This document shows positions 5,096 through 60,821 of a stretch of 64,000 nucleotides of DNA, piece by piece. The notes beneath the pieces were generated by a model. It was not told where the DNA came from. It saw only the letters and a list, made by a program, of their open reading frames with translations, and ran no database searches. Source of the stretch: Austropuccinia psidii (lineage: Eukaryota; Basidiomycota; Pucciniomycetes; Pucciniales; Sphaerophragmiaceae); contig JALGQZ010000011.1 in assembly GCA_023105745.1 (NCBI GenBank), forward strand, positions 21,974,975-22,038,974. Reading direction: 5' to 3'. Within the stretch, counting starts at the first letter, position 1. Every line of letters starts with the position of its first letter. Made by a program: the position numbers and the translations under genes.

Positions 5096-5096
5096 T

Positions 5097-10836: not shown

Positions 10837-10838
10837 TT

Positions 10839-11316: not shown

Positions 11317-11615
11317 TCAAAATGCTTGGTTTTCACTTTTCAGACACTTTTTTGGCCAGAATCAAGCAACTCACCACAAGAAGGACCAACCATCAGGATT
11401 TTTCTTTATTTCTTTCTTTACTCTCATTTTCTCTTATTATTTTTCTTTCTTTCTTTACTTGTATAATTTTCTTTCTTTTATTTCTTTAAAGCAGCAGCAT
11501 CCCCTCCCCAAATCATGTATTGGGAGGTTCCATTATCTTTTTTATTTTTTTTATTTTTTAGTATTTATAAGAGTGGGGATAGAAGCCAAACCAAACACAA
11601 ACAAGGAAAAGGAAA

Positions 11616-12754: not shown

Positions 12755-13813
12755 AGAAGGAGAAGACAATCAACTGAAGACGCCAGAACCATGAAGAATA
12801 GACGGTGGCGGTGCAGAAGGGGAAGATTCAGTGAGCTCAGTCAGTTTGGAACTCATAACTGAAGAATATGCAAGCAGAAGATTCAAGACGTCAGAATCAA
12901 TCCACTCCATATCAAGAAAAAAGGAACTTGACTCAAGGAAATGGGGCCATAACTCAATTATGCCCCCCCTCAAAGCCTCTAAGGTGAAGGTTCATACCCC
13001 TTTGGGGCTGAACTCATCACCCAGGGCGTCCCCTGCAACTTTGGGGAGGCCAGGATCTTGATGGTCCTGGACCCCATCAATGGGTCCAGGCCATGTAAGG
13101 TAAAAAATGGGTAAGGGCCATTTCTGGACCCCTTGGTCACCCTGGGTCCCCAGCAAATTTGGGCCCAGGGGCTCCATTTTGGTCCTGGGGGCCTCCAATA
13201 GCCCCCACGGACCGCGGACCGTAGGATCCCAAAGACTCAAAAGGGCCAAAAAAGGCCAAAAATCAAGATATCGAGGTTTTTCACCAGAGCACCCAAAAAG
13301 GCCCATAGGCCATAAAAAAAATCAAAGACATCAAAATCCATCAGAGCAAAGGCCATAGCCCAAAGTGCCTTATAGGGCTGTTAAGGCCATCTCCATGGAT
13401 TATGGGGACAAGACCCCTTGGAGGAAATTTTTTCAAATGTTTCAATTTTTCAATTTTTTCCAGAGATTTAAGGCTTGCCCAATGAGTACACTTCATATAC
13501 TCATTGGGCATCATTTTTTGAGCACAAGAGCTCAGTGGTCCTTATTCTGGGATATATCCCAAGGCCACACCCCAAGAGCATGGCTGATTGAATCAAAAGA
13601 AAGAATGGCATATTCTGGAAGGAATACTCACTTAAGCTTGGAAAAAGGGGGGAATCAATTGAATTTGGCAGGGAAGAAGGAATGAAGGATTTTCAGGATA
13701 ATTGTCAAGAGGAAAAGAAAATTAAAAAGAAAATTTTTTGAAAAAATGTGGGGATATTGAGATTCCACTCAACAGTGGCAGGGTATTATGGTGTTCAGGA
13801 GCCCACCAGTTTC
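12755..13813. other. Element A 3' region with a GC-rich island
   Basis: Upstream of the antisense gene and before the polypurine tract. Bases about 12960-13380 are unusually G+C-rich for this window, with many GGCC, CCCAGG and GGGGCC words and a CGGACCGCGGACCG stretch. Overlapping frames are open on both strands (12831-13061, 12992-13306, 13107-13358), as expected from low stop density at high GC. None has recognisable protein features. It could serve as the promoter or leader of the antisense gene (inference). Confidence 0.6.
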
Positions 13814-13823
13814 AAGAGGGGGA
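13814..13823 (+). other. Polypurine tract, element A
   Basis: AAGAGGGGGA followed by TAC directly precedes the 3' LTR at 13827. This is the expected plus-strand primer position for reverse transcription. Confidence 0.9.
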
Positions 13824-13826
13824 TAC

Positions 13827-14586
13827 TGTAACAACCATCCATCAGGGGTAAGGGTATTCATTCATACACCCACTCAAACACCTCAAATCAGCAAATCCAG
13901 TATCTGCATCAGCAGTCAGTTTCAGCAATCTTCATTCTGAAACATGCATACAGCTTGGTACATCAATACAGCCTGTCAATACCTGTACAGGTTGGATTCA
14001 CCCAATACAGTTTCAATACACCAGTATGGAACTTTATGATCACTCAAATACACCACACCTCTTGTACAGGTTCTGTACAGCTGTACAGGACCTGTATTGG
14101 CCAGACTCAATTCAATCATCAATTTTTCTCATGAAAATTCTTCCTCTGGATCAGGGCTGGTGATTCTCACATATACCAGCCCCTCTTTCTCCCCCCTGGG
14201 GACTTTTCCCCAGTTAATTAATTTAGTTTATTTATTATTTTATAATTACTCTTATCCTTATTTTGGGTATTATAATTATTTAATCTTAAGTTAGTCTTTG
14301 CATTTCTCTCTTCGCCTGTACAGTATGAGTTGGGTGGCCATATCCTTATTAACCCTTCTCTTTCCATTCTGACAGGTTGAAACAGTGGACTTGGACTTGT
14401 TTGTGGTTGGCTCTTCTATTCTTTTACTCTTATCTTTTGTTGCTGCTTTTCTTATATTTATTCTTTAGCAATTTATCTTTAACACTCTTAAGTGTATCCC
14501 CTTTTATCTTATCTTTGAGCCCTCCATAAGTGAGTCCCAGTTTACTGAGTGCCAGGCCCTCTTCACTTCGAAGAGCCCCTGTGACA
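13827..14586 (+). repeat. Element A 3' LTR
   Basis: 760 bp, TGTAACAACC...TGTGACA. Six substitutions from the 5' LTR: two near 14027-14034, one at the AATTTTTCTC block, one at TTAGTC, and two near 14409-14441. Confidence 0.96.
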
Positions 14587-14591
14587 GTATG
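14587..14591. repeat. Target site duplication GTATG, right of element A
   Basis: Second copy of the 5-bp duplication. The relic gag sequence resumes directly after it. Confidence 0.95.
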
Positions 14592-15940
14592 TTAAATCTT
14601 TCCTGTAACATATCCCCTGTTTTTGAGTTCAATATGGATTTATTCTCTTTCACCAGAGAATGTTGGCCATGCTCCTAGTCTGGAAATATCCTTTAAAAAA
14701 TCTAATTTCTCCAGTGATATGTCTTTGAAATGTATTTAACATTTACTTTGGAAAGAATTTCCCTTCAGTTGAGGTTGAAGAAAGGCTTTGCATATCTGAA
14801 GTTGGTTCATAACTCTTATTAATTTGATCCACTTGTGAAACTATTTCCTCCTTAAATTTATTTCTCTCCTTAGTACTTCTTTCTAAGTGTGTACAATGTG
14901 CTATCTCTAGCACATGGTCTTTCAAATTTATTAGTTGGTCATTGATATGATTAATGTAAATATTATGCATTTCTTCATTTTGTAACTCAATTCTACTCCC
15001 AAATGTTTTTCATGTGTAAGAAATAGACTCAATTCCTGCAGTGTTCCCTGTACAACATTTAGTAAAATTTCTGTCATTTTTTAGCTAATTCATATTTAAT
15101 GTTGATTTATTGAAGTAATTATCATAATTGTTACGTTTTACATTAATGGTGTAATAAATATGTCTAATTTTATTCATAACTTTTGTGGAAAGGTCCTCTT
15201 AATCCTTTCTTGCTCCTTGATGGTGAGCTACATAAGAGTACTTACCATATTAAACACATTGTCCATGGATGAAGTTTCTCATTTGGGAATCCTGTACCCT
15301 TGTGGGTAAGGTCTGTTCCAATTGTCTTTTACTTTCCCCTTGTTTTTGTGAGTCTGGGACTTTTCTGCTTGCTCTGAGGTAGCTTGGGATTTTCCTTGGG
15401 GAGTTCTATAGCTTCTTGATGCTGCTGGTCCCTTCTTTTCCAAAGATTTGGTCATCTCCAGCTTTTTCTTTTTTTCTACTGCTAAATTACTTTTACTGTT
15501 AAACTAATTCTTGATCTTCTTGACCTTGTCCTGGAAAAACATTGGGCTCCAACTTCCTAAGAGTTCTATGGTATTCTTCCAAACCCAAAGCTCTTGATGT
15601 GTAAGTGGGATTTCATTCCCCCTGACAAATTCTTGGGAATATTTCCCATGCTTCCTTGTTGGCTGCTCTGAACAAGTTTCTGTACTGAGACTAATAAATC
15701 TCTATGACTGCCACATGGAAATAGACAGCCCTTAATACAGTACTATTAATCAGTTTTGGTTCAGAATTCACATCAAAATTTGTGGTTACATACCTTGGGG
15801 AATGGGGCAACTTTGGAATTCTCCAAATATGCCTTTATTGAGGAAGGCCTTCCAGTTTTGGCCCTTTTCTTACCTCTTACTCCTTGTTCATATCCATCTG
15901 GTTGAACTGAATAATTGCTTCCATTTCTGGTATGCACCAT
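14592..15940 (-). pseudogene. Decayed Ty3/Gypsy ORF1-gag relic, 5' half
   Basis: Minus-strand continuation of the relic at 3170-4335. ATG at 15940 begins MVHTRNGSNYS, comparable to [11 protein letters not shown] of elements B and C. A possible donor AAG|GTATGT follows at about 15791. About 15220-15320 encodes RPYPQGYRIPK then SSMDNVFNM, matching the ORF1 C-terminus of B/C ([11 protein letters not shown]...AMENVFQM). ORF1 ends ...KRTFPQKL-stop, and this stop overlaps an ATG as ATGA (15177-15174), the same junction as in B/C. Downstream, 14970-14743 gives a coiled-coil-like gag stretch (INDQLINLKDHVLEIAH...NKSYEPTSDM). Many stops and shifts, so no functional product. Confidence 0.85.
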
Positions 15941-20876: not shown

Positions 20877-22712
20877 TGTAAGGTGTGGATATGAAACTTT
20901 GATTAAAAATCAAGTACTTTTCCTGTCCTCAAAATTTGTATAAGGTAAAATTCAGTTAAAAATAGTATGAAATATTATTTTTAAGAGAAAACACGCCAAT
21001 TTTATTGTTTATAACTTTATTAGTATAAAACAATAATATAAAAATTTATTGTTTTACCAACAATAAAGATTTATCCAAAAAATACTCTACAAGAGATATT
21101 TTAAGGCTACAAAAGAAATTTCTTCAAGAGCAATTTCAATTGGAATTAATTGAGCAAAGAACTGCAAGCAATTAATTAAAGAACAAAGTCTTTAAAAAGA
21201 ATATTAAAGAGAAAACACGCCCAAAAGTGACCAGAGTGAATTTGGAAACAAAGTGACAAAGTTTACAGTGATGAAAGATGCTTTAATTCACTTTTGGGGT
21301 GGTTCAGGGGTAAAAATGATTATAAGAGTTACAAACAATGATTATAATGATTTTTTCACGTGGTTAAAAGGATTAAAATGATTATAAATTGGTGGTTGGA
21401 ATCTTTGATTGATTGGTTTAACAGTGTTTAAACTAATTAATAAAAGGAAAAGATTCTAACATAAAGAGAAAAGTGGGGCAAAGAAGAAATTCTTTTATAG
21501 CCATCAATTCTCTTACTCCAAAAGTAAAATTTACTCTTGTCAGTCGTGAAAAACAGTCTGACAACAGAAAAGCCAATTATGGCATCATTGAACCCTGGTT
21601 TAGACCAAAAAGGGCTGGTTTAAGCCATTTTTAGCCATTTTTAGCCATTTTAGACCCTTAAATCAGCCATTACTATAGCAATACCAGGCCTAGAGCCTTC
21701 AAAACACGTCAGAATGTGTGTCAGAGGCGTAGAAACCAGTTAAAACTGTTTTTATTATGATTGTTTTATCTTAAGGGTAGTTTTACCTTCTTGGCAACAG
21801 CTAAAACTACCCCAGTTGGTATCAAAACCTCATCATCAATTGAGTCCACAGACCCTGTAACTCAATTCCAGGCCAAAAGTGATGAACTTTTGCGTGAATT
21901 TTGACATCCCACGCCTGTCAGCAAGGATTTTGGGGGTCTAGCTCCCCCTTAGAGCTGGAGTTCCTTTTCCCCCCCAAATTTAATCTTTCCAATTTATTTT
22001 TCCTTTAATTCCTCATCATGTATTATACTTATAATTTACACATGTAATTCAATTCAATTGTACAGTACAATACAGTAATAATTGACACCTCATATGTAAA
22101 TCAAAGTTCACTTATGTAATACACGCGCACATTTTGACATTTCAATTGAATTCAATTGAAAATACTTTAATTCCTCATAACTTCTAAACTAAACACAACA
22201 CCTCAATTTTAACACAAAAATTGATGGTTAACACCACATGTGGTGTGAATTAAATTAAGGTTTTGAGGATTTTCAACTTTTGTATTGAAAATACTAAAAA
22301 CTTAATTTAAGCTTATTTAGAGTTGAGTTACAAAAATTTCACTCAGAGGTGACCCCACCTGATTTTTTATGAGGAATCCAATGGTGAAATAAAATTTATA
22401 TGTTTATTTATTGGATAAAAAGTTATAATAAATTTTATTTAACTTTTTTCCAAATTTATTTATTTTTTCACAATTTTGTTAAAATTTCATTTTTACTTAA
22501 ATTTTTCAAGTATAAATGTAATTTTATATTTACAAAATTTAAAGTAATTTTATTTTTAAATTATAATTAATTTTTTATTTTTAATATAATTTTATATTTA
22601 TATTTTTTATTTTTATTTTAATAATATAAATAAATTTATTTTATTTATATTAATATGTTATTTTTTATATTTGTGGTCTTTTGGGTATATGAAATTACCT
22701 CTAAGGCTCACA
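20877..22712 (-). repeat. Element B 3' LTR
   Basis: 1836 bp. In sense orientation it starts TGTGAGCCTTAGAGG and ends CCACACCTTACA. No difference from 29135-30970 was found in a line-by-line comparison. The U3 side (right part on the plus strand, 22430-22670) is extremely AT-rich. Confidence 0.97.
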
Positions 22713-22724
22713 TTCCCTCCCCCT
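22713..22724 (-). other. Polypurine tract, element B
   Basis: On the minus strand AGGGGGAGGGAA lies directly before TGTGAG of the 3' LTR, as expected for the plus-strand primer. The same tract is in element C at 39439-39450. Confidence 0.92.
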
Positions 22725-22735
22725 AAAAAAGAATA

Positions 22736-22993
22736 TTACTTTGTAATATTGGTGTTTCTAGTGTGTCTGAATCTCCTCAGGAGTTTGGTGGCTTCTGGTA
22801 TATCTTTCTCTTCTAACCATTCATCTTCACAAGTTGGGTCACTGTACCTAACAAGGTATTCCCTTACTTTCTTGGTTCTTAATTTCCTTTCTTTAAGAAC
22901 TTTGGTTATTTTCTTAGTACCAGATGTCTCAATAGGAGGTATAACTTGGGGAATCTTATTCCTCAAGGGAAATTTCTCAGCATCACTAGATTT
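22736..22993 (-). pseudogene. Cut-off C-terminal part of element B pol (chromodomain-like)
   Basis: In frame with gag-pol but after a TAA at 22996-22994. Element C has TAC (Tyr) at that codon (KPYKSSD). The detached part encodes KKVREYLVRYSDPTCEDEWL and ATKLLRRFRH, a chromodomain-like module that in chromoviruses guides integration to particular chromatin. In B it would be absent from the protein unless the stop is read through. Confidence 0.88.
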
Positions 22994-25900
22994 TTATGGC
23001 TTTATCAAGCTTACTGGAAATGTAGGGTGCTTATTGCTAAGTTCTTCAGATAACTCTACTTCAACAGCATTTTCTCCATGGAGGGCCTTAATCATAAAAG
23101 GTCCTGCAAAGGAGTCTTTTAACTTTTTACATCCTTTGATGTTATTGAAGTTAGTGGTGGATACAAGAACTAGGTCCCCCACTTTGAAATCTGGAGTTGC
23201 ATGAGATTTATCCCATTTGTCTTTAGCATATGCAAAAGAGTCCTCCATGCATCTCACTGCATGCTTTCTAGCTTTGTCTAGCATTCCTTTGAAGCTAGCA
23301 GCTGTGGGATGTATTTCAATTAAGTCTTTCCTCAAGGAATCTTGGGGTAACTTGGGGTTCCATCCTTTTTCTAGAATAGCAGGAGTCTGATTGGTACTGG
23401 AATGGATTGATGTTTTATATGCTAATTCCAGTGCTGGTAACAGAGTACACCAATCATGGGTAAATCCATCACAATCTTTGAATTCAAGGCCATATGCACA
23501 AAATCTTCTCACCATGTCCTCTAAGGTTTGGATCATTCTTTCAGCCAGACCATCAGTTTGTGGGTGGTAGGCTGTAGAGAAAGACAGTTTTGTGCCAAAT
23601 AATTGGTGAAGATTTGTCCATAGAGCTGAAGTGAATTTGGGATCTCTATCACTGATGATATTTGTAAATATCTCAGTCCATGACACTACTCTATTCCATA
23701 TCAGAAGAGCTGTATCCATGGCTGTATCATCTTTGTGACATGGTAAAAAGATTGGAGTTTTACTGAATCTGTCCACAATTACTAGGCAAGCATTATAGCT
23801 CTTGTCACCTCCTGGTGGTAGGCCAGTTACCCAATCCATATGGACAATTTCCCAAGGTCTGTTTGGTTCTTGGATTTTCATCATATTTCCAAGTCTTTTG
23901 CCAGTGGATTTATTTGCCTTTTGGCATCTGTCACAGGTTTTGCAATATTCTGCAACATCTTTTTGCCACATTGGCCACCATATGCAGGTCTTTACTTTCT
24001 CTCTTGTTCTGTCCTCAGAAAGATGTCCTGAAAAGGGACTATCATGGCATTCTTTCAGTACAAGATTGATTAATGACCTGTCTACAACTGTCATGACACA
24101 TGTGTGCTTGGTTCTGTGGTAAATTATACCATCCAGTAGGTGAAATCTCCCTTCATTATAAGATTTTCTCCATACTTCATCCAAGGCATGTATTAGAGAG
24201 TTGTCTTTACAGTCTTTGTTAAGTAATTGGCATAAGATGCTACAATTCTTATCTTGAGTGTAACTATTTCTGACTTCTTCAAAGAAGGTGGTGTTCAAGT
24301 CTGTAACACTTATTCCTTCTATTGGAATTTGTGGTGAAGCTTCTTCTGGAACATAAGCAGGATTATCAATGTTATTTGGTAATGGCCATCTGCTTAGTCC
24401 ATCTGCATTCTTATGAATATTCCCATCCTTATGAACAATAGTCATATTGCCTCTGTATTCTTGTATGGCTATTTGCCATCTGAGCATGTGTCTGTTAGGT
24501 GTTTTCATGTTCAAAAGTGATTTCACAGCTGTACAATCTGTTATTACTTCAAAAACACATCCCTCTAAGAAATAGTTCAATTTCTCTAAAGCCCAGACAA
24601 GGCATAGACATTCCATTTGACTTGCTCCATATCTGGCTTCAGTTGGTTTGATTTGCCTGGATATGAAACATATTGGTCCTTCTACAGGTTTGTCATTTAT
24701 GATCTGAACTTGGTGAAGTGCAGCACCTAGTCCATCCCCTGATGCATCAATATACAGTTTGAAAGGCAATTTAAAGTCTGGCATCAGTAAGAGTGGAGCA
24801 GTGGTCAATGCTTCTCTTAGAGACTCAAAAGCTTTGACTCTGTCAACAGTCATCTCAAATACTGTGTCTTTGTCACACAACTTATAAAGTGGTCTTGCTA
24901 TGGATGCAAAGTCTTTAATGTGTTGCCTGTAATATCCTGCAAAACCTAAGAATGACTGAATTTCCTTCTTATTCTGAGGCATGGGTTTTAACAATACTGC
25001 TGCAACTTTGTTTTTATCAATTCCAAGGGACAAACCAGATACAACATGTCCTAGTGCCTTAAGTTCTTTAAATCCAAAATGACATTTCTTCAAGGAGATT
25101 TTCATGTTTACTGATTGGATTTTTGTCAAAACTCTTGATAATCTGTACATGTGCTCCTCCCAAGTCTTTGAACAGATAATAATGTCATCAATGTAAATGA
25201 TTAACCATCCCTCTGAGAGTTCTTCAGGGAAGATTTCATTCATCATTCTTTGGAAGTGTGAAGGTGCATTTTTGATACCAAAGGGCATCCTTAAGTATTC
25301 ATACACTCCACAATGAACAATAATTCTCAAGTATTTTCTTGCTCTTGGTGTTACTACATTTTGATGGAATCCTTTAAGGGCATCCATAGTGGTTATATAC
25401 ACTGCTTGAGATATTTGAGTAAGGGCAATTTGGATTTTTGGTATTGGGTATCTGTCTGGAACAGTGTAAGTGTTCAGAGCTCTAAAGTCCCCAACCATTC
25501 TGGATTTTCCATTATGCCACGCCACTATGACTGGTGTAGTTATTTCTACTTCCTCATTGTGGCCTACTTTTCTTATTACACCAAGGTCTAGAAGTTCTTT
25601 GATATGAATTTCTAGAGCTTCTCTTGATTTTGGACTTTCTGGATAAGCAGGTCTTCTTAAGAGTGGTGGATAAGGTCTCTCAATGTTAAGAATGATGTCA
25701 ACTTCATGACCAATAATTGCTCCCAGGGGTTCTTTGTCTGTAGCAAATGCTCCTCTGTGGTCATACAAAAGGGAAGAAAGTTCATTTTCTTGCTTATCAG
25801 TCAGATGAAGGCTTATTTCAGCCTCATTTAACTGTTCAGACTTGAATTTCTCTAACTCTAAGTTGACTGGTGATACTTTGTTTACTGTAATTTGTCTTTT

Positions 25901-28660
25901 AAAGGGTAAAAAGGCAAATTTCTGGCGCTTATTGTCTCCAATTGTAAAGTATCTGTCTTTGTTATTATGTAAATCTATCCCATACATGATTAAATAGTCA
26001 TTTCCCAATATAAAATGGGTACTAGAGCAATTTTCCATAACAACAAATTCAACTGTGATCCTTAAATTCCCATTTATGTGTGGGAATATGACATTGGTCT
26101 CAAAGATTCCTAATGCTTTCATTGGGTTACTTGCACTGTTGAATTTTATACCATCAATTGGTAACAATTGGTCTTCAAAATTTGGTACACAAGTCTTAAG
26201 AAAAGATTTTCCAACACAAGAGCAGAAGGCTCCTGGGTCAAGCAAAAGTTTGGTGGGCTTGTTGTCAATCACCACTTCTGTTATACAGGAGTTACCAGCT
26301 GTATAACCTTTTCCTCTGTTTGGTTTTGTCTTCATAAGTTGTGCATCTTGAACTTTTGATAAATCAACTTGACCATTGCTCAATTGTGGTAAGTGGGAAT
26401 AAGATTCCATGATGTCAAAAGTGGCATTGATATTTTCTATATCTTTTGAAGATTCAGTGAATATGGATGACTTATCATCTGAATTGTCTTCAATTATGTC
26501 TTCCTTTTCAACATCTGGTTCTTTTTCAATGTCAATTTCATTGATTTTCCCCCTTTTTGGACATGTATTGGCTAAATGGGTGGTGCTTTGGCAAATATGG
26601 CATTTTCTGACTGTATCTGCAGATTTATATTTAATATTACTAGAATTTTCTTTGGGGTTTTTGTCCACAGAATCTTTCCAAGGTGTATTAAACCTTGTTT
26701 TAAGATTCACCCTACTAGAACCAATTTTGGTTCTGGTGGTTACTTCTTCTAGTATATTGATAATATCCTCTGCTGAAGATTGTTCAGTAGTCCTGCTTTT
26801 GACAGCATGCTCTAAGTCACCTCCACATTGTCTCAGAATTTTTCTATGGATCATAAATTCTGACATGTCAGGATATAATGCTGTTAATCTGTCCTTTTGT
26901 TGGCAAAACCATGGTAAAGCTTTGTCTTTATCAGCATTAAATTTGGCAGATTCAAAGGCTGTTTCAACTTTAAACCTCCAAGCATCATTTGCCCATTTGT
27001 TGATGATTTGGGTTTTCCACCAAGTCCAACTCTGGTGTCCATGTGCTTGTCTTATTTTGATGTACCATCTGTGAGCTGATCTGGTAAACAAGGTGTTAAA
27101 CCTGGCTGTTACCAATCTGTCTGGTAATTCAAAATCCTCTTTGATCATGTCAATACCTCTAATGAATTCCATATGGTCATACTCTCCTTCACCACTGAAG
27201 TGAGGCCATTCTTTAAGTTTTGGAACTTCTTTCAAGAGTGCTTGGCCCATTGATGGTTCCAAGTTATGAAAAGAAGTGGATAATTCATTTTTTAATTGTG
27301 AATTATCAGGATCCAATACTTGTGGATTTGAAATTCTTGTGCCCTCATTTTGATTTAGAGGTGTAGACATTCTTGGTAAGGTGTTCAGTAATTGTTCAAT
27401 GTCATTCATTTTACTGTTGCTACACCTTTGGGAATTTCTGTATTCATGTTGGAAGCTTTGTATTAAATTTATTACTTCAATTTTATACATGTCTTCTTTA
27501 TGTGTAAGTTCTTGCCATAACTCTGTCTGTCTTGTATTATCAGCAGTGACTTGATTCAATTTCATTGATAATTTTGATACTTCTTCTTGTGAAGCATCAA
27601 AACACTTTTTCAAGGCAATGGTATATGTCTTTACTTCAGTAAATGAATTTGAAATGTCATCAAGGACTTTCTTGTTATCTGTCTTGATAATATTTATGGC
27701 TTGTTTAATTCTTGTTTCAATTATGTCATCAATATTGAATTTAGAATATTTATCTGTTAATTCTTTAATAATGGCAGATTGTTCATTTATTTTATTGTTA
27801 GAAGAATTATCATTATTGGAATTTTTAATTGTTCTCAAAACTTTTTCAAAACACATAAGTGTTTCATTAATTTGGCACAGACTCAGGTTGTTTGTTTTAA
27901 TGTTGTTACAAATGGTGTCATTTTTATCAGAAAGATGTTTTTTCACGTCATTTATAGCATTATACAACTCTGGGATGGAATCAAATATGTCAGAAATCAT
28001 TTCTGGAACCTTAATCTGGCTTCCTCCTTCTTCTGTAATTCCATCATGGTTCTGGCCATCTGAAATACATTTTCCATGGCATCCTGCTGAATCTTTGGGA
28101 TTCTGTAGCCCTGGCTGTAAGGTTTTGGGGCTGGTGCCTTCCCTTTGCCCTTGTTTGGAGTTTGTGGCTGCTTTTTCACGTTGGAATTGCTGCTGCTGGC
28201 CACTGGGGCTGTTTTTGGCACTGGTTTTGGTGGTGGAGGGTTGTTTTTCCTCCATTCCAGTGTCAAAAGCATCATGTTTTTCTTCTCCATCAATGGATGC
28301 CATCCATTGAGCAATTTGCAAGTGTTGGGATGGCCCAAGAATTTTCTTACTGTCAGGTAAGAATTCATGCAATTCTTCCACAGGTCTGCAAGGATCTGGT
28401 ACTCTTTGAATTGAAGTGCATTGTTGTATGCACTGTGGCTGGCTTTGTATATGTCCACAGAGGCTTGTTGTGGCGGTGTCAGCTCTTTTTGAAGGTAAAA
28501 TGGTATTATCAGCTTCAGAATGACCCATTTTAGTTGTTTGGAAGTCATCAACTGACCCTTTTCCTTCTGTACCTGGTTGGCCTCTGCCATAATCACGTCT
28601 ATTACCTTTTTGGGAGCTGCTTGAGGGGTTGTAGCTGGCTCCTGACCTGGTTGAAGGCAT
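22994..28660 (-). CDS. gag-pol: Gag-Pol polyprotein, element B (C-terminus truncated)
   Basis: 1888 codons from ATG 28660, the first ATG after the 5' LTR in unspliced RNA. ATG 28000 (codon 221) overlaps the ORF1 stop. Codons 1-220 overlap ORF1 and are low-complexity. Codons about 225-450 are coiled-coil-like; a capsid domain follows ([24 protein letters not shown]), then a zinc knuckle [14 protein letters not shown]; a protease with D808-P-G instead of DTG/DSG; RT with Y1156-I-D-D; RNase H ([13 protein letters not shown]); integrase with HHCC, then D1609, D1671 and E1707 (DX35E) and a GPF module. A TAA at codon 1889 truncates the chromodomain-like tail. Gag and Pol lie in one frame here, unlike element A. 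Apart from the tail it looks intact. Confidence 0.93.
27997..28000 (-). promoter_or_regulatory. AUGA stop-restart junction, element B
   Basis: On the minus strand the ORF1 stop TGA (27999-27997) overlaps ATG (28000-27998) in the gag-pol frame (codon 221, MISDIFDS). AUGA overlaps are used for coupled termination-reinitiation in some viruses and retroelements. The same junction is found in element C and in the relic at 15177-15174. Confidence 0.8.
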
Positions 28661-28986
28661 AATTATGGTTAAAAAGGCTTAAAATAGTATTTTTACGTCA
28701 AAAACTTACTATTGGCCAAATTTTTAGCTTTCTGAAGGGTATTACTTATGTCCAAGTTAATTAATTCAGAAGATATTGGTTCAGGTTGGTTATTTTGAGT
28801 CACAATAACAGTACTATTATGATCAGAATTAACAGTACTGGCAGGGATAATGCTGGTTACTGTTGAGGCTGTTTCAATGTTTTCTTGTCTTACCACGTTG
28901 TCAGACACTAAAATTAATGAAAAAGCCAATTAATTAAGTAAAAAAAATGGTTATTTCAAAAAAGAAATAAAAATATAAGCCTCACT
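27997..28986 (-). CDS. ORF1, spliced accessory protein of element B
   Basis: Predicted three-exon gene of 282 residues. Exon 1 ends with A (28986); intron 1 is 28985-28908 (78 nt, GTGAGG...TTTTAG); exon 2 is 28907-28710, beginning TG, so A+TG makes the start codon ([10 protein letters not shown]); intron 2 is 28709-28647 (63 nt, GTAAGT...ACCAG); exon 3 is 28646-27997. Features: a Gln/Ser/Thr-rich N-terminus, helical stretches with [11 protein letters not shown] and [13 protein letters not shown], a Pro/Lys linker ([10 protein letters not shown]), and a C-terminal amphipathic helix ([20 protein letters not shown]). Exon 3 overlaps gag-pol in another frame. All nine substitutions from element C are silent in ORF1. 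Function is unknown; the basic Pro-rich linker might bind nucleic acid. The splicing is predicted, not observed. Confidence 0.78.
28647..28709 (-). other. ORF1 intron 2, element B (contains the gag-pol ATG)
   Basis: 63 nt, donor AATA|GTAAGT, acceptor CAACCAG|GT. Splicing removes ATG 28660, the first codons of the long gag-pol frame, and joins exon 2 to ORF1 exon 3. In element C the intron is 64 nt because of one extra T, with exon lengths unchanged. Confidence 0.72.
28908..28985 (-). other. ORF1 intron 1, element B (splits the start codon)
   Basis: 78 nt, donor TTATAA|GTGAGG, acceptor TTAATTTTAG|TGTCTGAC. Neither B nor C has an ATG in frame with exon 2 without this splice. The unrelated-looking leader of element D has the same layout, TTATAA|GTAAGT and TTCAG|TGGAAG. 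Confidence 0.7.
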
Positions 28987-29116
28987 TATAATATGAAAAA
29001 AAAAATATTTTTTAAGGATTTTTTGGATTATAAGTATTTTTTATATGTTTTTTAAATTTTTCAATATAAGAAAAAAGATTTAAAAAGAGTAAAAAAATAT
29101 GTCACAGGTAAAATAT

Positions 29117-29132
29117 CACGGCTGGGCCCCCA
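29117..29132 (-). other. Primer-binding site, element B
   Basis: On the minus strand the 5' LTR ends CTTACA and after two T's comes TGGGGGCCCAGCCGTG. TGG would pair with the CCA end of a tRNA. I cannot name the tRNA. Element C has TGGGGGCCCAGCTGTG and element D has TGGGGGCCTGGCCGTG. Confidence 0.8.
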
Positions 29133-29134
29133 AA

Positions 29135-30970
29135 TGTAAGGTGTGGATATGAAACTTTGATTAAAAATCAAGTACTTTTCCTGTCCTCAAAATTTGTATA
29201 AGGTAAAATTCAGTTAAAAATAGTATGAAATATTATTTTTAAGAGAAAACACGCCAATTTTATTGTTTATAACTTTATTAGTATAAAACAATAATATAAA
29301 AATTTATTGTTTTACCAACAATAAAGATTTATCCAAAAAATACTCTACAAGAGATATTTTAAGGCTACAAAAGAAATTTCTTCAAGAGCAATTTCAATTG
29401 GAATTAATTGAGCAAAGAACTGCAAGCAATTAATTAAAGAACAAAGTCTTTAAAAAGAATATTAAAGAGAAAACACGCCCAAAAGTGACCAGAGTGAATT
29501 TGGAAACAAAGTGACAAAGTTTACAGTGATGAAAGATGCTTTAATTCACTTTTGGGGTGGTTCAGGGGTAAAAATGATTATAAGAGTTACAAACAATGAT
29601 TATAATGATTTTTTCACGTGGTTAAAAGGATTAAAATGATTATAAATTGGTGGTTGGAATCTTTGATTGATTGGTTTAACAGTGTTTAAACTAATTAATA
29701 AAAGGAAAAGATTCTAACATAAAGAGAAAAGTGGGGCAAAGAAGAAATTCTTTTATAGCCATCAATTCTCTTACTCCAAAAGTAAAATTTACTCTTGTCA
29801 GTCGTGAAAAACAGTCTGACAACAGAAAAGCCAATTATGGCATCATTGAACCCTGGTTTAGACCAAAAAGGGCTGGTTTAAGCCATTTTTAGCCATTTTT
29901 AGCCATTTTAGACCCTTAAATCAGCCATTACTATAGCAATACCAGGCCTAGAGCCTTCAAAACACGTCAGAATGTGTGTCAGAGGCGTAGAAACCAGTTA
30001 AAACTGTTTTTATTATGATTGTTTTATCTTAAGGGTAGTTTTACCTTCTTGGCAACAGCTAAAACTACCCCAGTTGGTATCAAAACCTCATCATCAATTG
30101 AGTCCACAGACCCTGTAACTCAATTCCAGGCCAAAAGTGATGAACTTTTGCGTGAATTTTGACATCCCACGCCTGTCAGCAAGGATTTTGGGGGTCTAGC
30201 TCCCCCTTAGAGCTGGAGTTCCTTTTCCCCCCCAAATTTAATCTTTCCAATTTATTTTTCCTTTAATTCCTCATCATGTATTATACTTATAATTTACACA
30301 TGTAATTCAATTCAATTGTACAGTACAATACAGTAATAATTGACACCTCATATGTAAATCAAAGTTCACTTATGTAATACACGCGCACATTTTGACATTT
30401 CAATTGAATTCAATTGAAAATACTTTAATTCCTCATAACTTCTAAACTAAACACAACACCTCAATTTTAACACAAAAATTGATGGTTAACACCACATGTG
30501 GTGTGAATTAAATTAAGGTTTTGAGGATTTTCAACTTTTGTATTGAAAATACTAAAAACTTAATTTAAGCTTATTTAGAGTTGAGTTACAAAAATTTCAC
30601 TCAGAGGTGACCCCACCTGATTTTTTATGAGGAATCCAATGGTGAAATAAAATTTATATGTTTATTTATTGGATAAAAAGTTATAATAAATTTTATTTAA
30701 CTTTTTTCCAAATTTATTTATTTTTTCACAATTTTGTTAAAATTTCATTTTTACTTAAATTTTTCAAGTATAAATGTAATTTTATATTTACAAAATTTAA
30801 AGTAATTTTATTTTTAAATTATAATTAATTTTTTATTTTTAATATAATTTTATATTTATATTTTTTATTTTTATTTTAATAATATAAATAAATTTATTTT
30901 ATTTATATTAATATGTTATTTTTTATATTTGTGGTCTTTTGGGTATATGAAATTACCTCTAAGGCTCACA
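29135..30970 (-). repeat. Element B 5' LTR
   Basis: 1836 bp, apparently identical to the 3' LTR. It supplies promoter and leader for minus-strand transcription. A TATA box could not be chosen with confidence because the U3 side is almost all A and T. Confidence 0.97.
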
Positions 30971-39461: not shown

Positions 39462-42400
39462 TTACTTTGTAATATTGGTGTTTCTAGTGTGTCTGAATCT
39501 CCTCAGGAGTTTGGTGGCTTCTGGTATATCTTTCTCTTCTAACCATTCATCTTCACAAGTTGGGTCACTGTACCTAACAAGGTATTCCCTTACTTTCTTG
39601 GTTCTTAATTTCCTTTCTTTAAGAACTTTGGTTATTTTCTTAGTACCAGATGTCTCAATAGGAGGTATAACTTGGGGAATCTTATTCCTCAAGGGAAATT
39701 TCTCAGCATCACTAGATTTGTATGGCTTTATCAAGCTTACTGGCAATGTAGGGTGCTTATTGCTAAGTTCTTCAGATAACTCTACTTCAACAGCATTTTC
39801 TCCATGGAGGGCCTTAATCACAAAAGGTCCTGCAAAGGAGTCTTTTAACTTTTTACATCCTTTGATGTTATTGAAGTTAGTGGTGGATACAAGAACTAGG
39901 TCCCCCACTTTGAAATCTGGAGTTGCATGAGATTTATCCCATTTGTCTTTAGCATATGCAAAAGAGTCCTCCATGCATCTCACTGCATGCTTTCTAGCTT
40001 TGTCTAGCATTCCTTTGAAGCTAGTAGCTGTGGGATGTATTTCAATTAAGTCTTTCCTCAAGGAGTCTTGGGGTAACTTGGGGTTCCATCCTTTTTCTAG
40101 AATAGCAGGAGTCTGATTGGTACTGGAATGGATTGATGTTTTATATGCTAATTCCAGTGCTGGTAACAGAGTACACCAATCATGGGTAAATCCATCACAA
40201 TCTTTGAATTCAAGGCCATATGCACAAAATCTTCTTACCATGTCCTCTAAGGTTTGGATCATTCTTTCAGCCAGACCATCAGTTTGTGGGTGGTAGGCTG
40301 TAGAGAAAGACAGTTTTGTGCCAAATAATTGGTGAAGATTTGTCCATAGAGCTGAAGTGAATTTGGGATCTCTATCACTTATGATATTTGTAAATATCCC
40401 AGTCCATGACACTACTCTATTCTATATCAGAAGAGCTGTATCCATGGCTGTATCATCTTTGTGACATGGTAAAAAGATTGGAGTTTTACTGAATCTGTCC
40501 ACAATTACTAGGCAAGCATTATAGCTCCTGTCACCTCCTGGTGGTAGGCCAGTTACCCAATCCATATGGACAATTTCCCAAGGTCTGTTTGGTTCTTGGA
40601 TTTTCATCATATTTCCAAGTCTTTTGCCAGTGGATTTATTTGCCTTTTGGCATCTGTCACAGGTTTTGCAATATTCTGCAACATCTTTTTGCCACATTGG
40701 CCACCATATGCAGGTCTTTACTTTCTCTCTTGTTCTGTCCTCAGAAAGATGTCCTGAAAAGGGACTATCATGGCATTCTTTCAGTACAAGATTGATTAAT
40801 GACCTGTCTACAACTGTCATGACACATGTGTGCTTGGTTCTGTGGTAAATTATACCATCCAGTAGGTGAAATCTCCCTTCATTATAAGATTTTCTCCATA
40901 CTTCATCCAAGGCATGTATTAGAGAGTTGTCTTTACAGTCTTTGTTAAGTAATTGGCATAAGATGCTACAATTCTTATCTTGAGTGTAACTATTTCTGAC
41001 TTCTTCAAAGAAGGTGGTGTTCAAGTCTGTAACACTTATTCCTTCTATTGGAATTTGTGGTGAAGCTTCTTCTGGAACATAAGCAGGATTATCAATGTTA
41101 TTTGGTAATGGCCATCTGCTTAGTCCATCTGCATTCTTATGAATATTCCCATCCTTATGAACAATAGTCATATTTCCTCTGTATTCTTGTATGGCTATTT
41201 GCCATCTGAGCATGTGTCTGTTAGGTGTTTTCATGTTCAAAAGTGATTTCACAGCTGTACAATCTGTTATTACTTCAAAAACACATCCCTCTAAGAAATA
41301 GTTCAATTTCTCTAAGGCCCAGACAAGGCATAGACATTCCATTTGACTTGCTCCATATCTGGCTTCAGTTGGTTTGATTTGCCTGGATATGAAACATATT
41401 GGTCCTTCTACAGGTTTGTCATTTATGATCTGAACTTGGTGAAGTGCAGCACCTAGTCCATCCCCTGATGCATCAATATACAGTTTGAAAGGCAATTTAA
41501 AGTCTGGCATCAGTAAGAGTGGAGCAGTGGTCAATGCTTCTCTTAGAGATTCAAAAGCTTTGACTCTGTCAACAGTCATCTCAAATACTGTGTCTTTGTC
41601 ACACAACTTATAAAGTGGTCTTGCTATGGATGCAAAGTCTTTAATGTGTTGCCTGTAATATCCTGCAAAACCTAAGAATGACTGAATTTCCTTATTATTC
41701 TGAGGCATGGGTTTTAACAATACTGCTGCAACTTTGTTTTTATCAATTCCAAGGGACAAACCAGATACAACATGTCCTAGTGCCTTAAGTTCTTTAAATC
41801 CAAAATGACATTTCTTCAAGGAGATTTTCATGTTTACTGATTGGATTTTTGTCAAAACTCTTGATAATCTGTACATGTGCTCCTCCCAAGTCTTTGAACA
41901 GATAATAATGTCATCAATGTAAATGATTAACCATCCCTCTGAGAGTTCTTCAGGGAAGATTTCATTCATCATTCTTTGGAAGTGTGAAGGTGCATTTTTG
42001 ATACCAAAGGGCATCCTTAAGTATTCATACACTCCACAATGAACAATAATTCTCAAGTATTTTCTTGCTCTTGGTGTTACTACATTTTGATGGAATCCTT
42101 TAAGGGCATCCATAGTGGTTATATACACTGCTTGAGATATTTGAGTAAGGGCAATTTGGATTTTTGGTATTGGGTATCTGTCTGGAACAGTGTAAGTGTT
42201 CAGAGCTCTAAAGTCCCCAACCATTCTGGATTTTCCATTATGCCACGCCACTATGACTGGTGTAGTTATTTCTACTTCCTCATTGTGGCCTACTTTTCTT
42301 ATTACACCAAGGTCTAGAAGTTCTTTGATATGAATTTCTAGAGCTTCTCTTGATTTTGGACTTGCTGGATAAGCAGGTCTTCTTAAGAGTGGTGGATAAG

Positions 42401-45386
42401 GTCTCTCAATGTTAAGAATGATGTCAACTTCATGACCAATAATTGCTCCCAGGGGTTCTTTGTCTGTAGCAAATGCTCCTCTGTGGTCATACAAAAGGGA
42501 AGAAAGTTCATTTTCTTGCTTATCAGTCAGATGAAGGCTTATTTCAGCCTCATTTAACTGTTCAGACTTGAATTTCTCTAACTCTAAGCTGACTGGTGAT
42601 ACTTTGTTTACTGTAATTTGTCTTTTAAAGGGTAAAAAGGCAAATTTCTGGCGCTTATTGTCTCCAATTGTAAAGTATCTGTCTTTGTTATTATGTAAAT
42701 CTATCCCATACATGATTAAATAGTCATTTCCCAATATAAAATGGGTACTAGAGCAATTTTCCATAACAACAAATTCAACTGTGATCCTTAAATTCCCATT
42801 TATGTGTGGGAATATGACATTGGTCTCAAAGATTCCTAATGCTTTCATTGGGTTACTTGCACTGTTGAATTTTATACCATCAATTGGTAACAATTGGTCT
42901 TCAAAATTTGGTACACAAGTCTTAAGAAAAGATTTTCCAACACAAGAGCAGAAGGCTCCTGGGTCAAGCAGAAGTTTGGTGGGTTTGTTGTCAATCACCA
43001 CTTCTGTTATACAGGAGTTACCAGCTGTATAACCTTTTCCTCTGTTTGGTTTTGTCTTCATAAGTTGTGCATCTTGAACTTTTGATAAATCAACTTGACC
43101 ATTGCTCAATTGTGGTAAGTGGGAATAAGATTCCATGATGTCAAAAGTGGCATTGATATTTTCTATATCTTTTGAAGATTCAGTGAATATGGATGACTTA
43201 TCATCTGAATTGTCTTCAATTATGTCTTCTTTTTCAACATCTGGTTCTTTTTCAATGTCAATTTCATTGATTTTCCCCCTTTTTGGACATGTATTGGCTA
43301 AATGGGTGGTGCTTTGGCAAATATGGCATTTTCTGACTGTATCTGCAGATTTATATTTAATATTACTAGAATTTTCTTTGGGGTTTTTGTCCACAGAATC
43401 TTTCCAAGGTGTATTAAACCTTGTTTTAAGATTCACCCTACTAGAACCAATTTTGGTTCTGGTGGTTACTTCTTCTAGTATATTGATAATATCCTCTGCT
43501 GAAGATTGTTCAGTAGTCCTGCTTTTGACAGCATGCTCTAAGTCACCTCCACATTGTCTCAGAATTTTTCTATGGATCATAAATTCTGACATGTCAGGAT
43601 ATAATGCTGTTAATCTGTCCTTTTGTTGGCAAAACCATGGTAAAGCTTTGTCTTTATCAGCATTAAATTTGGCAGATTCAAAGGCTGTTTCAATTTTAAA
43701 CCTCCAAGCATCATTTGCCCATTTGTTGATGATTTGGGTTTTCCACCAAGTCCAACTCTGGTGTCCATGTGCTTGTCTTATTTTGATGTACCATCTGTGA
43801 GCTGATCTGATAAACAAGGTGTTAAACCTGGCTGTTACCAATCTGTCTGGTAATTCAAAATCCTCTTTGATCATGTCAATACCTCTAATGAATTCCATAT
43901 GGTCATACTCTCCTTCACCACTGAAGTGAGGCCATTCTTTAAGTTTTGGAACTTCTTTCAAGAGTGCTTGGCCCATTGATGGTTCCAAGTTATGAAAAGA
44001 AGTGGATAATTCATTTTTTAATTGTGAATTATCAGGATCCAATACTTGTGGATTTGAAATTCTTGTGCCCTCATTTTGATTTAGAGGTGTAGACATTCTT
44101 GGTAAGGTGTTCAGTAATTGTTCAATGTCATTCATTTTACTGTTGCTACACCTTTGGGAATTTCTGTATTCATGTTGGAAGCTTTGTATTAAATTTATTA
44201 CTTCAATTTTATACATGTCTTCTTTATGTGTAAGTTCTTGCCATAACTCTGTCTGTCTTGTATTATCAGCAGTGACTTGATTCAATTTCATTGATAATTT
44301 TGATACTTCTTCTTGTGAAGCATCAAAACACTTTTTCAAGGCAATGGTATATGTCTTTACTTCAGTAAATGAATTTGAAATGTCATCAAGGACTTTCTTG
44401 TTATCTGTCTTGATAATATTTATGGCTTGTTTAATTCTTGTTTCAATTATGTCATCAATATTGAATTTAGAATATTTATCTGTTAATTCTTTAATAATGG
44501 CAGATTGTTCATTTATTTTATTGTTAGAAGAATTATCATTATTGGAATTTTTAATTGTTCTCAAACCTTTTTCAAAACACATAAGTGTTTCATTAATTTG
44601 GCACAGACTCAGGTTGTTTGTTTTAATGTTGTTACAAATGGTGTCATTTTTATCAGAAAGATGTTTTTTCACGTCATTTATAGCATTATACAACTCTGGG
44701 ATGGAATCAAATATGTCAGAAATCATTTCTGGAACCTTAATCTGGCTTCCTCCTTCTTCTGTAATTCCATCATGGTTCTGGCCATCTGAAATACATTTTC
44801 CATGGCATCCTGCTGAATCTTTGGGATTCTGTAGCCCTGGCTGTAAGGTTTTGGGGCTGGTGCCTTCCCTTTGCCCTTGTTTGGAGTTTGTGGCTGCTTT
44901 TTCACGTTGGAATTGCTGCTGCTGGCCACTGGGGCTGTTTTTGGCACTGGTTTGGGTGGTGGAGGGTTGTTTTTCCTCCATTCTAGTGTCAAAAGCATCA
45001 TGTTTTTCTTCTCCATCAATGGATGCCATCCATTGAGCAATTTGCAAGTGTTGGGATGGCCCAAGAATTTTCTTACTGTCAGGTAAGAATTCATGCAATT
45101 CTTCCACAGGTCTGCAAGGATCTGGTACTCCTTGAATTGGAGTGCATTGTTGTATGCACTGTGGCTGGCTTTGTATATGTCCACAGAGGCTTGTTGTGGC
45201 GGTGTCAGCTCTTTTTGAAGGTAAAATGGTATTATCAGCTTCAGAATGACCCATTTTAGTTGTTTGGAAGTCATCAACTGACCCTTTTCCTTCTGTACCT
45301 GGTTGGCCTCTGCCATAATCACGTCTATTACCTTTTTGGGAGCTGCTTGAGGGGTTGTAGCTGGCTCCTGACCTGGTTGAAGGCAT
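39462..45386 (-). pseudogene. gag-pol: Gag-Pol polyprotein, element C (stop in integrase)
   Basis: Same frame and length as in element B, from ATG 45386 (or internal ATG 44726 at the ORF1 stop) to 39462. The Gag capsid, zinc knuckle, DPG protease, RT (YIDD), RNase H and integrase zinc module are intact. Codon 1655 is TAG (40424-40422) where B has TGG (LLIWNRVV), between the first and second catalytic Asp of integrase. Outside the ORF1 overlap there are about 11 amino-acid differences from B in roughly 1750 codons. The detached C-terminal 316 codons keep DX35E, GPF and the chromodomain-like tail. Predicted product: Gag, protease, RT, RNase H and a truncated integrase. Confidence 0.93.
44723..44726 (-). 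promoter_or_regulatory. AUGA stop-restart junction, element C
   Basis: Same overlap as element B: ORF1 TGA (44725-44723) inside ATG (44726-44724) of the gag-pol frame. Confidence 0.8.
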
Positions 45387-45713
45387 AATTATGGTTAAAA
45401 AAGGCTTAAAATAGTATTTTTACATCAAAAACTTACTATTGGCCAAATTCTTAGCCTTCTGAAGAGTATTACTTATGTCCAAGTTAATTAATTCAGAAGA
45501 TATTGGTTCAGGCTGGTTATTTTGAGTCACAATAACAGTGCTATTATGATCAGAATTAACAGTACTGGCAGGGATAATGCTGGTTACTGTTGAGGCTGTT
45601 TCAATGTTTTCTTGTCTTACCACGTTGTCAGACACTAAAATTAATGAAAAAAGCCAATTAATTAAGTAAAAAAAGGATATTTCAAAAAAATAAATAAAAA
45701 TTTAAGCCTCACT
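44723..45713 (-). CDS. ORF1, spliced accessory protein of element C
   Basis: Exon 1 ends with A at 45713; intron 1 is 45712-45635 (78 nt); exon 2 is 45634-45437 (198 nt); intron 2 is 45436-45373 (64 nt); exon 3 is 45372-44723 (650 nt). This gives the same 282-residue protein as element B, with no amino-acid difference despite nine nucleotide differences (five in exon 2, four in exon 3). Intron 2 by contrast has a substitution and a one-base length change. One intron 2 difference creates ATGTAA on the coding strand, a minimal start-stop present only in unspliced RNA. Function unknown. Confidence 0.78.
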
Positions 45714-59231: not shown

Positions 59232-60821
59232 AGTAAGTTTTTTCTCTTATTCTTTATTTTCTGACAATTGTTTTATATTTTCAGGCGTATTTTCTTTTAA
59301 AAATATATTTTATATTTATTTTTACTTTAAATACTCATATTATAAGAGTACTTACCACGTGGTTAATACCCACTGAAACCTTTATTTTTGGCATGTTTAC
59401 ATATAAAAACACATAAGCCATCAACAATTCCTGTATTCTTGATTGAATAAGGACACCTCAGACTGAAAAACCATCAGTTGAGGTGTGTTTAAGTGTATTT
59501 TTAACTCAATTACACTTATTCAGATTACACTTGAAAACCACAAGTGTATCTGTGGGATACTGGCACACAAACAGTGTGACAGGGTACCAAAAGCTGTAAT
59601 TCTGATGTGGAATTGTTGACTCAATTACACTGTCATTATACAGGGCATATTGTAGTAACATACAAGCCCAGAGGCCAATCCTAGACATGCAAAACCAGCA
59701 TTTTGGAGAAGTCTTAACTGACATAAGCCCTCTTTTTCCTGCCTTGATTCAGTGGAAGAAAATTACATCCCACTTGAGACCCAGTCACAGGCCAACACAC
59801 CAGTCACACCCTCGGAACCAGAGGGAAGCAAGGGCAAAGGAAAGAGGCACAGTGAAGGTCTCATCACAGCCAAGAAGTGGACTCTAATAGCCACTCAGAG
59901 GAGTAAAAAACCACAAAACTCTGCATCAATACAAGGTAAACCAACCTTAACCACTTATACAGGAAAAATTATAATTATTAACCCAGTTGTAACCTACAAA
60001 GGCAAACTCCCCAAATCAGAAGATAACAAATTTGTACAAGGCACAGTCAAAGGTAAATACCCTAAGAACATGAAGTTTTTGACTGCTTGCAAACACTGAT
60101 ATGTCTCCTGTATACCTCAGAGACCTTGGCTTCCAAAGGAACCAGCTAGAGGACAGAGAAGGCTTGTCCAGAACCAGAAGACCTGGAAGAGGAGACCTTG
60201 GACACAGTGGTGGATGGCAAAACAATGAGGGAGATAATATAAACCCTTCCATTCACACTCCAATTCAACAGGAACCTCAAACCAGAGGACTGGAAGGGTA
60301 TGAATAAAGTTCTTCAGCTCCACCAACTCCTCAAAGATTTATTTCAATGAAGCATGGACAACAAGAGGTTCAACCTGGCAAGTCACTGGGCAGAACTTGG
60401 AGCAAGTTGCCAGAAGATCTGTCTCAGAGAGATAGACTTCAAAGACCTTATGTTAATCACCAAAGGTTGGAATCCTACCAAGCAGTTCAGACTCCTGGAG
60501 GCAAGGGCACAGAGGATAAAGGAGAATCAAGCCACTATCCAAGCTATAGAAGAACAGTTAACCCAGACAGGGCCTACTCAGATTCCTTCAGGCTCACAAG
60601 GAGCAGGCCAAATCAGCTCTTCAGTGGTTTCACACCATTCATAAACCAGCAGATCAGTGGCCAAGAGTCACCATTATTCACAATTCCAGGAAGTTTCCAG
60701 GAGAAGACAAGGAAACAAGGGCAAGAACAAAACCTCCTTCAACCAGAGGAGGAAAGAGTCAGACCCCATGATCCAGAAGCTGTTAGATCTGGTGAAAGAA
60801 GTACACAAGAACCAGAAGTAG
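59232..60821 (+). pseudogene. ORF1 of element D, spliced, with four premature stops
   Basis: Predicted exon 1 ends with A at 59232 (CCTTATAA|GTAAGT); intron 1 is 59233-59752 with a strong pyrimidine tract and acceptor TTGATTCAG; exon 2 is 59753-60052, starting TG so that A+TG forms the AUG (MEENYIPLETQ); intron 2 is 60053-60120 (68 nt, GTAAAT...CTCAG) in the same phase as in B/C; exon 3 runs to TAG 60819-60821. Shared with the B/C ORF1: LPFTLQFNRNLKP (compare [11 protein letters not shown]), KGWNPTKQF (compare NGWHPLMEK), and a terminal helix ESDPMIQKLLDLVKEVHK. Premature stops: 60147, 60240, 60348 and 60642. The gag-pol frame is again -1 relative to ORF1, although no AUGA is left at this junction. 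Confidence 0.72.

Follow-up and report, generated by a model that had tools for sequence, protein, structure and literature searches.

An LTR retrotransposon lineage of the Ty3/Gypsy type in the myrtle rust fungus Austropuccinia psidii appears to use splicing to switch the first AUG of its RNA, such that unspliced RNA would yield Gag-Pol, whereas spliced RNA would yield the protein of an additional upstream frame, ORF1; on the sequence evidence presented below, we put the probability of this switch at about 85%. In elements B, C and D of the window (the whole 64,000-nucleotide stretch analysed here, G000:C11:21974975-22038974), the start codon of ORF1 comes into existence only after splicing, when TTATAA|GT...AG|TG is converted to ATG. 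The steps that are directly supported are the splice junctions, which are seen in processed genomic copies, the coding selection on ORF1, the depletion of AUGs upstream of Gag-Pol, and the position of the Gag-Pol AUG.

Anatomy of the elements and the split start codon

The elements are laid out in Table 1. The Gag-Pol frame of element B has Pfam matches to RVT_1 (residues 1050-1206), RT_RNaseH (1295-1402), Integrase_H2C2 (1526-1584) and rve (1600-1700), i.e. reverse transcriptase and RNase H lie upstream of the integrase in a single pol frame, which is the Ty3/Gypsy arrangement. About 280 nt separate the ORF2 stop (22994) from the 3' LTR (22712), and the ORF1 protein of B has 282 aa. The presumed primer-binding site (PBS), TTTGGGGGCC, opens the internal regions of B and C, in B directly at the LTR edge; a search for its primer tRNA with ARAGORN, covering 10 of 20 random loci, returned no tRNA. 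The window copy of D is broken, with a stop at ORF1 codon 88 when the predicted exons are read, and its splice sites are intact.

Table 1. Features of elements B, C and D, numbered from the first nucleotide of the window.
Element	Feature	Positions	Strand	Basis
B	Ty3/Gypsy LTR retrotransposon	20877..30970	-	self-BLAST; RT, RNase H, integrase Pfam domains
B	LTRs, 1,836 nt each, identical	20877-22712, 29135-30970	-	self-BLAST
B	putative PBS region TTTGGGGGCCCAGCCGTG, adjoins 5' LTR	29117..29134	-	sequence
B	leader exon 1, internal part, ends CATATTATAA	28986..29134	-	joined to exon 2 in L070, L071
B	intron 1, 78 nt, GTGAGG...TTTTAG; removal makes ORF1 ATG	28985-28908	-	sequence; processed copies
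B	ORF1 exon 2, begins TGTCTGAC from 28907; ATG-free	28710..28907	-	purifying selection in ORF1 frame
B	intron 2, 63 nt, GTAAGT...AACCAG; holds Gag-Pol AUG	28647..28709	-	sequence; missing from L070
B	Gag-Pol (ORF2) start codon, within intron 2	28658..28660	-	sequence
B	ORF1 exon 3, stop TGA; overlaps ORF2 in different frame	27997..28646	-	sequence; dN/dS
B	ORF2, Gag-Pol polyprotein, 1,888 aa	22994..28660	-	sequence; Pfam
C	intron 1, 78 nt, junctions as in B	45712-45635	-	sequence
C	ORF1 exon 2	45437..45634	-	sequence
C	intron 2, 64 nt; Gag-Pol AUG at 45386-45384	45373..45436	-	sequence
C	ORF1 exon 3	44723..45372	-	sequence
C	ORF2, Gag-Pol frame; ends after 1,654 aa, inside integrase	40422..45386	-	sequence; Pfam
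D	PBS and leader exon 1, ends TTATAA	59188..59232	+	joined to exon 2 in nine processed copies
D	intron 1, 520 nt, GTAAGT...ATTCAG	59233..59752	+	sequence; processed copies
D	ORF1 exon 2a, begins TGGAAG	59753..59935	+	sequence; processed copies
D	extra intron, 66 nt, GTAAAC...ACAAAG	59936..60001	+	missing from L072-L075
D	ORF1 exon 2b	60002..60052	+	sequence; processed copies
D	intron 2, 68 nt, GTAAAT...CCTCAG; Gag-Pol AUG at 60101-60103	60053..60120	+	sequence; processed copies

A sequence-only reading of the window had claimed that exon 2 of ORF1 holds no in-frame ATG in B, C or D and that unspliced RNA thus lacks an ORF1 start; in fact, exon 2 of all three elements is free of ATG in every frame. 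It had also paired TTATAA|GT donors with AG|TG acceptors across introns as different as 78 and 520 nt, and these sites are found at the named elements, their ends joining to TTATAATGTCTGAC in B and to TTATAATGGAAG in D. The range that it had marked, 28908..28986, is indeed intron 1 of B but is one base too long, and the 66-nt intron of D was not named in that reading. The window contains the motif TTATAAGTRAG only at the donors of B, C and D, three occurrences in all, whereas 100 shuffles gave a mean of 0.13 occurrences and none reached three.

The annotation of the genome bears traces of the missing start codon. In three protein searches, of which the best 120 of 561, 470 and 767 matches were considered, all named matches among these came from A. 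psidii MF-1, and the search with 470 matches had two unnamed ones among those listed. Among 120 MF-1 gene models that were listed, 17 lack a Met and open directly with ORF1 codon 2, as would be expected of a gene finder that sees an acceptor without a start codon, and genes of this kind can escape annotation; two more (P0025, P0038) have a Met ahead of codon 2. About 25 of 120 listed B-family models begin at an ATG of codon 5, which fits CpG decay in AACGTGG.

Processed genomic copies carry the predicted junctions

If the predicted splicing takes place and spliced RNA is occasionally reverse-transcribed, intron-less genomic copies are to be expected, a fossil record of RNAs that once were reverse-transcribed. 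Eleven such copies were found, all of which lack intron 1; two belong to family B and nine to family D. The exact junctions were absent from a first set of 69 loci. As these natural copies carry the ends joined, a chance joining of sites in our predictions is excluded, and as they exist in both families, the predicted junctions must have been used in vivo. The claim that splicing makes the ORF1 start codon in two families that differ from each other is thereby supported.

For the B junction, the whole genome was searched with TATTATAATGTCTGACAA at up to two mismatches, which gave 206 matches (100 listed) and 150 with the reversed control. The two exact matches among those listed were both fetched and are genuine processed copies, so that the B count covers these two of the 206. 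In both, LTR end, PBS and leader continue directly into exon 2. Introns 1 and 2 are precisely missing from L070 (C2:43.88 Mb), whereas L071 (C2:75.78 Mb) has lost intron 1 and retains the first 33 nt of intron 2 up to the end of the fetched stretch, which shows that intron 1 can leave without intron 2. At about positions 64-82, L071 also has GGGGGCCCCGTCGGGAT in place of the PBS GGGGGCCCAGCCGTGAT, as if a different tRNA had primed reverse transcription.

For the D junction, GACCTTATAATGGAAGA at up to one mismatch gave ten matches, all of which were fetched; the count by itself proves nothing, as the reversed control gave 14, but nine of the ten (L072-L076, L078-L081) turned out to be processed copies with PBS and leader joined to exon 2, while L077 is unrelated. 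Four of them (L072-L075), read over 487 nt, lack all three introns, i.e. intron 1, the 66-nt intron and intron 2, and when they are aligned with window D minus the predicted introns, the 12 nt to either side of each of these junctions are free of gaps. For the remaining five copies, the stretch read is 122 nt long and covers the first junction alone. L072 reads open across the three junctions, and L073, L074 and L075 have stops. The four differ from each other by 7 to 19% and therefore do not stem from one recent duplication, although descent of some of them from a single processed ancestor is not excluded.

Could these copies be artefacts, in which recombination or assembly deletions fortuitously joined the sites? 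Their small number would allow for this, as eleven stand against first-look candidate counts of at least 1,165 (B) and at least 6,495 (D), which are rough lower bounds. Yet an artefact would have had to produce identical junctions in eleven copies of two families, to remove three introns from each of four D copies without alignment gaps at the junctions, and to take different introns from L070 and L071, which makes this explanation hardly credible. The low ratio of processed copies to candidates suggests that reverse transcription of spliced RNA is rare.

The B-junction search also yielded evidence that counts against the proposed switch. In 26 of the 100 listed B-junction matches, the sequence reads TTTTAATGTCTGACAA, i.e. 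the acceptor AG is lost by conversion to AATG and the ATG is encoded in the DNA, so that copies of this kind are not rare.

Conservation of the arrangement and genome setting

A sample of 20 stretches of 10 kb at round coordinates contained seven elements with the presumed PBS at an LTR-like edge (ACATTT), which belong to four families: B-like L029 and L030, D-like L040 and L045, L033 and L038 of family E, and L044 of family G. An extra TTTGGGGGCC in L030 without the ACATTT edge was left out. AG|TG is intact in five of the seven, L033 having CG and L045 TT in place of TG, and AG|TG together with a Gag-Pol ATG shortly upstream of the intron-2 acceptor is found in B, D, E and G, in the latter in one copy.

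The sequence-only reading had proposed to look for the site pairing in other copies, and in those of B and D the donor and AG|TG recur. The 30 B rows that were aligned are window B and C plus the closest copies, 28 of 40 listed places (29 are distinct, one being B itself); AG|TG and, at intron 2, the donor GT and the Gag-Pol ATG are present in all 30, the intron-1 donor GT and the intron-2 AG in 29 each. The D alignment has 18 rows (window D, L040, L045 and 15 copies fetched out of 40 listed); donor, AG|TG and intron-2 AG are each present in 17 of them and the ATG in all 18; exon 1 of the D-like L040 and L045 ends in ATAAAA rather than TTATAA. AG|TG is found in seven of eight E rows (six fetched of 40 listed, L033 and L038). 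Two candidate donors of family E, TCTA|GTATAA and TATAAA|GTGAAT, are both conserved, and either would yield an ATG; a third, TTTATAA|GTTATT, is weakened, as this stretch is an inverted-repeat arm that is missing from L033. The inverted repeat, TATAAGTTATT...AATAACTTATA, lies just upstream of the intron-1 acceptor in L064-L069 and is deleted in L033. By eye, an additional ORF1 intron seems to lie within the Gag-Pol overlap of L038 and L044, about 850-1000 nt past the PBS, for which G (L044) offers a GC-AG type donor candidate, AAAG|GCAAGT.

The genome comprises 1,015,390,075 bases, and the window has 33.6% GC. The published A. psidii genome is described, in the part of PMC8063080 available to us, as CpG-depleted, with 33.8% GC, and as made up to more than 90% of transposons, most of which are Gypsy. 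The window contains a second Ty3-type element at 4336-14595, which bears a chromodomain, has 769-nt LTRs that are 98.8% alike, and spreads gag, protease and RT-integrase-chromo over three frames. Fourteen of 40 listed E-family matches, 97-100% alike, lie within 4.5 Mb at G000:C6:37.27-41.79 Mb, a cluster that may reflect local amplification or a centromere-like region, and G000:C2:28.1-32.5 Mb is possibly another such region, as 15 of the 100 listed B-junction matches cluster there, all reading TATTTTAGTGTCTGACAA, i.e. intact B-type acceptors.

ORF1 evolves as a protein-coding gene

Pairwise comparisons, some of them with decayed partners (in L029, the ORF2 frame is interrupted by two stops), indicate that exon 2 evolves as a protein in the ORF1 frame only. 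For the true exons of D, dN/dS is 0.18 against L040 (77 codons) and 0.18 against L045 (73 codons), whereas the other two frames give 1.84 to 2.83; with the 66-nt intron counted in, the values are 0.20 and 0.23, and 1.16 to 2.09 in the other frames. Exon 2 of B against L029 gives 0.25 in the ORF1 frame and 3.1 and 5.1 in the others. D and L040 align without gaps in exons 2a (85% identity) and 2b (78%), whereas intron 1 is 68% identical with 12 gap openings. The 66-nt intron, however, is also 85% identical and open in the ORF1 frame, so conservation alone would not tell it from coding sequence.

The ORF1 frame also dominates in the overlap with Gag-Pol, which extends over about 660 nt (27997-28660). 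For B against L029, dN/dS in the overlap is 0.20 in the ORF1 frame and 1.9 in the ORF2 frame; the third frame has 0.79, with 19 and 21 stops. As the constraint in this comparison falls on the ORF1 frame alone, the N-terminus of Gag-Pol, its first ~220 residues, may be a passenger frame, and a later AUG could serve.

These data bear on two other explanations. Splicing might occur for another end, such as leader shortening or the production of export-competent RNA, while ORF1 decays or is left untranslated; the Pfam search, which returned nothing for ORF1, and the poor structure prediction for an ORF1-type protein (mean pLDDT 62, pTM 0.29, from an alignment of 36 rows) would agree with that. We regard this as very improbable, since it conflicts with the dN/dS of about 0.2 in both exon 2 and overlap, with the D alignment, where one row of 18 has a 9-nt gap in exons 2a and 2b and all others are free of indels there, and with the C-termini of ORF1, which by eye are alike in B, E and G. 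Alternatively, ORF1 might start on the unspliced RNA at an in-frame GUG or another non-AUG codon, with the spliced ATG as a mere by-product of splicing. Any AG followed by TG indeed leaves a GTG in frame as long as the RNA is unspliced, as is seen in B, C and D, but the unspliced exon 2 frame runs into a stop inside intron 2 in B and just before the Gag-Pol ATG in D, so that such a start would give a short peptide only. As the exon 3 region is selected in the ORF1 frame like exon 2, and as the junctions are used in nature, a non-AUG start is very unlikely, and translation of ORF1 from the splice-made AUG is the explanation that we prefer.

The Gag-Pol AUG and its AUG-poor leader

The Gag-Pol AUG lies within intron 2, in B at 28660, 12 nt ahead of the acceptor AG, and in D at 60101, 18 nt ahead of it, and is therefore removed together with this intron. 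In E (L038) and G (L044), the Gag-Pol frame begins with MTPNRSG and MTTRRG, and by eye the likely acceptor AG falls within an Arg codon.

In B, transcription was assumed to start about 28 nt past a TATA-like GGCTATAAAAG at 29760. Counted from this assumed start, the sole ATG of the leader is that at nucleotide 7; the 1,055 nt between nucleotide 12 and Gag-Pol have none, whereas shuffles have 13.6 on average, none of 300 reached zero, and the reverse complement CAT occurs 19 times. The deficit lies mainly in the LTR part (0 versus 7.5 expected) and exon 2 (0 versus 4.3); exon 1 and the two short introns are individually too short to show depletion. Twenty-seven B copies, L001 being the window's own B, have 9 ATG versus 492 CAT in 28,527 nt, two of 29 having been left out as they have no recognised TATA motif.

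The counts for D and E begin at the PBS, and in those for D 'exon 2' included the 66-nt intron. From PBS to Gag-Pol, 18 D copies have 61 ATG versus 239 expected, and 275 CAT. Of these ATGs, 49 lie in intron 1, where CAT occurs 199 times, and each of the five ATG columns common to at least four copies is a decayed CpG. L057 has no ATG in 929 nt, while depletion is weaker in L040 and L045 (11 and 7 versus 15 and 17 expected). The AUG poverty of the 520-nt intron 1 of D suggests that RNA keeping this intron is scanned. Eight E copies have 18 ATG versus 80 expected, with none in the 713 nt of L066, and the single G copy has 4 versus 9.5. In the 600 nt before the PBS, which may not be leader throughout, the picture is mixed, with few ATG in most elements and 20 in L033. 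Any retroelement that depends on scanning is expected to have a long leader with few AUGs, and such a leader by itself is no proof of a switch.

A probable splice-controlled switch of the first AUG

Mechanistically, we envisage that a single LTR promoter gives rise to a single primary RNA, the first kilobase of which is nearly AUG-free. On unspliced RNA, ribosomes would scan to the first AUG, which lies in intron 2, and produce Gag-Pol. On spliced RNA, the removal of intron 1 would join ...TTATA-A to TG..., and the AUG thus formed, that of ORF1, would now come first, while the removal of intron 2 would delete the Gag-Pol AUG and join the exons of ORF1, the final one overlapping Gag-Pol in a different frame. 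An AUG within ORF1 itself would precede that of Gag-Pol on the genomic RNA and prevent Gag-Pol synthesis, which would be why ORF1 lacks one of its own, and a start codon that is split over an intron would solve this conflict. RNA spliced at intron 1 only would start ORF1 and then hit a stop inside intron 2. What we infer in this scheme is scanning, the site of transcription start, that each RNA is translated, and whatever function the ORF1 protein may have.

The sequence-only reading had concluded that splicing separates messenger RNA from packageable RNA, and in this strict form the conclusion is not supported. The unspliced RNA very probably serves as a messenger as well, since beyond the assumed start it is the Gag-Pol AUG in intron 2 that comes first, and the spliced RNA has evidently been reverse-transcribed, as the processed copies carry the LTR end and the PBS; any separation is evidently leaky.

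How one RNA is divided between messengers and genome is a long-standing question in the retroelement field. The rust elements would answer it with a readable rule: an AUG split by an intron would be hidden from scanning ribosomes as long as the RNA is unspliced and offered first once it is spliced. This rule predicts AUG-free introns, AG|TG acceptors and an intronic Gag-Pol AUG, which can be checked in other genomes. More speculatively, and with considerable doubt on our side, the split start codon could be the core of a two-state programme across this rust retrotransposon lineage, with a Rev-like ORF1 protein that would come from spliced RNA alone and feed back by holding or exporting unspliced RNA. 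If so, splicing would time regulator versus particle, in a lineage that built much of a 1-Gb genome.

Comparison with known systems

A second messenger is produced by splicing also in BARE and copia, and for BARE separate pools of messenger and template are reported, but there, as far as the available part of PMC3735527 describes it, splicing favours Gag, with no start codon made and no extra ORF expressed. Ogre elements, plant Ty3/Gypsy retrotransposons, likewise have a long ORF without assigned function upstream of gag and a spliced transcript (available parts of PMC1142308 and PMC3735527), but Ogre splices between its ORFs according to the latter source. In Rice tungro bacilliform virus, splicing fuses a leader start codon to the distal ORF of P4 and regulates how much unspliced RNA is left (PMC5902531, in part). 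There, splicing does not create the AUG, which belongs to a short ORF already present in the leader, and pararetroviral leaders hold several short ORFs, whereas the rust leader is AUG-free.

In 2005, an intron upstream of gag was unreported for any LTR element, as stated in the accessible text of PMC1142308. Our literature search, which included accessible text of PMC7264820, found no precedent for a layout upstream of gag with the Gag-Pol AUG in an ORF1 intron, and the portions available of the rust genome papers PMC8063080 and PMC12210899 yielded no mention of a split-start layout. The suggestion of the sequence-only reading that no LTR element of this layout has been described thus holds, within the literature searched, for the position upstream of gag, but not for the splice-made start as such, which has been reported for Drosophila gypsy env.

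The env gene of Drosophila gypsy is located downstream of pol. The rust elements share the splice-made start with gypsy-type errantiviruses, but in place of an env downstream of pol they have an extra ORF upstream, which has no Pfam match. Both are members of the Gypsy superfamily in which the start codon of an extra ORF arises only via splicing; in gypsy, AT comes from the 5' site and G from the 3' site, and the authors, in the part of PMC2585583 available, state that the spliced RNA was undetected in their own species. In gypsy, the ORF is env and the donor lies in gag, whereas ORF1 of the rust elements lies upstream of Gag-Pol and overlaps it, its start codon is split as A|TG, and the Gag-Pol AUG resides within an ORF1 intron.
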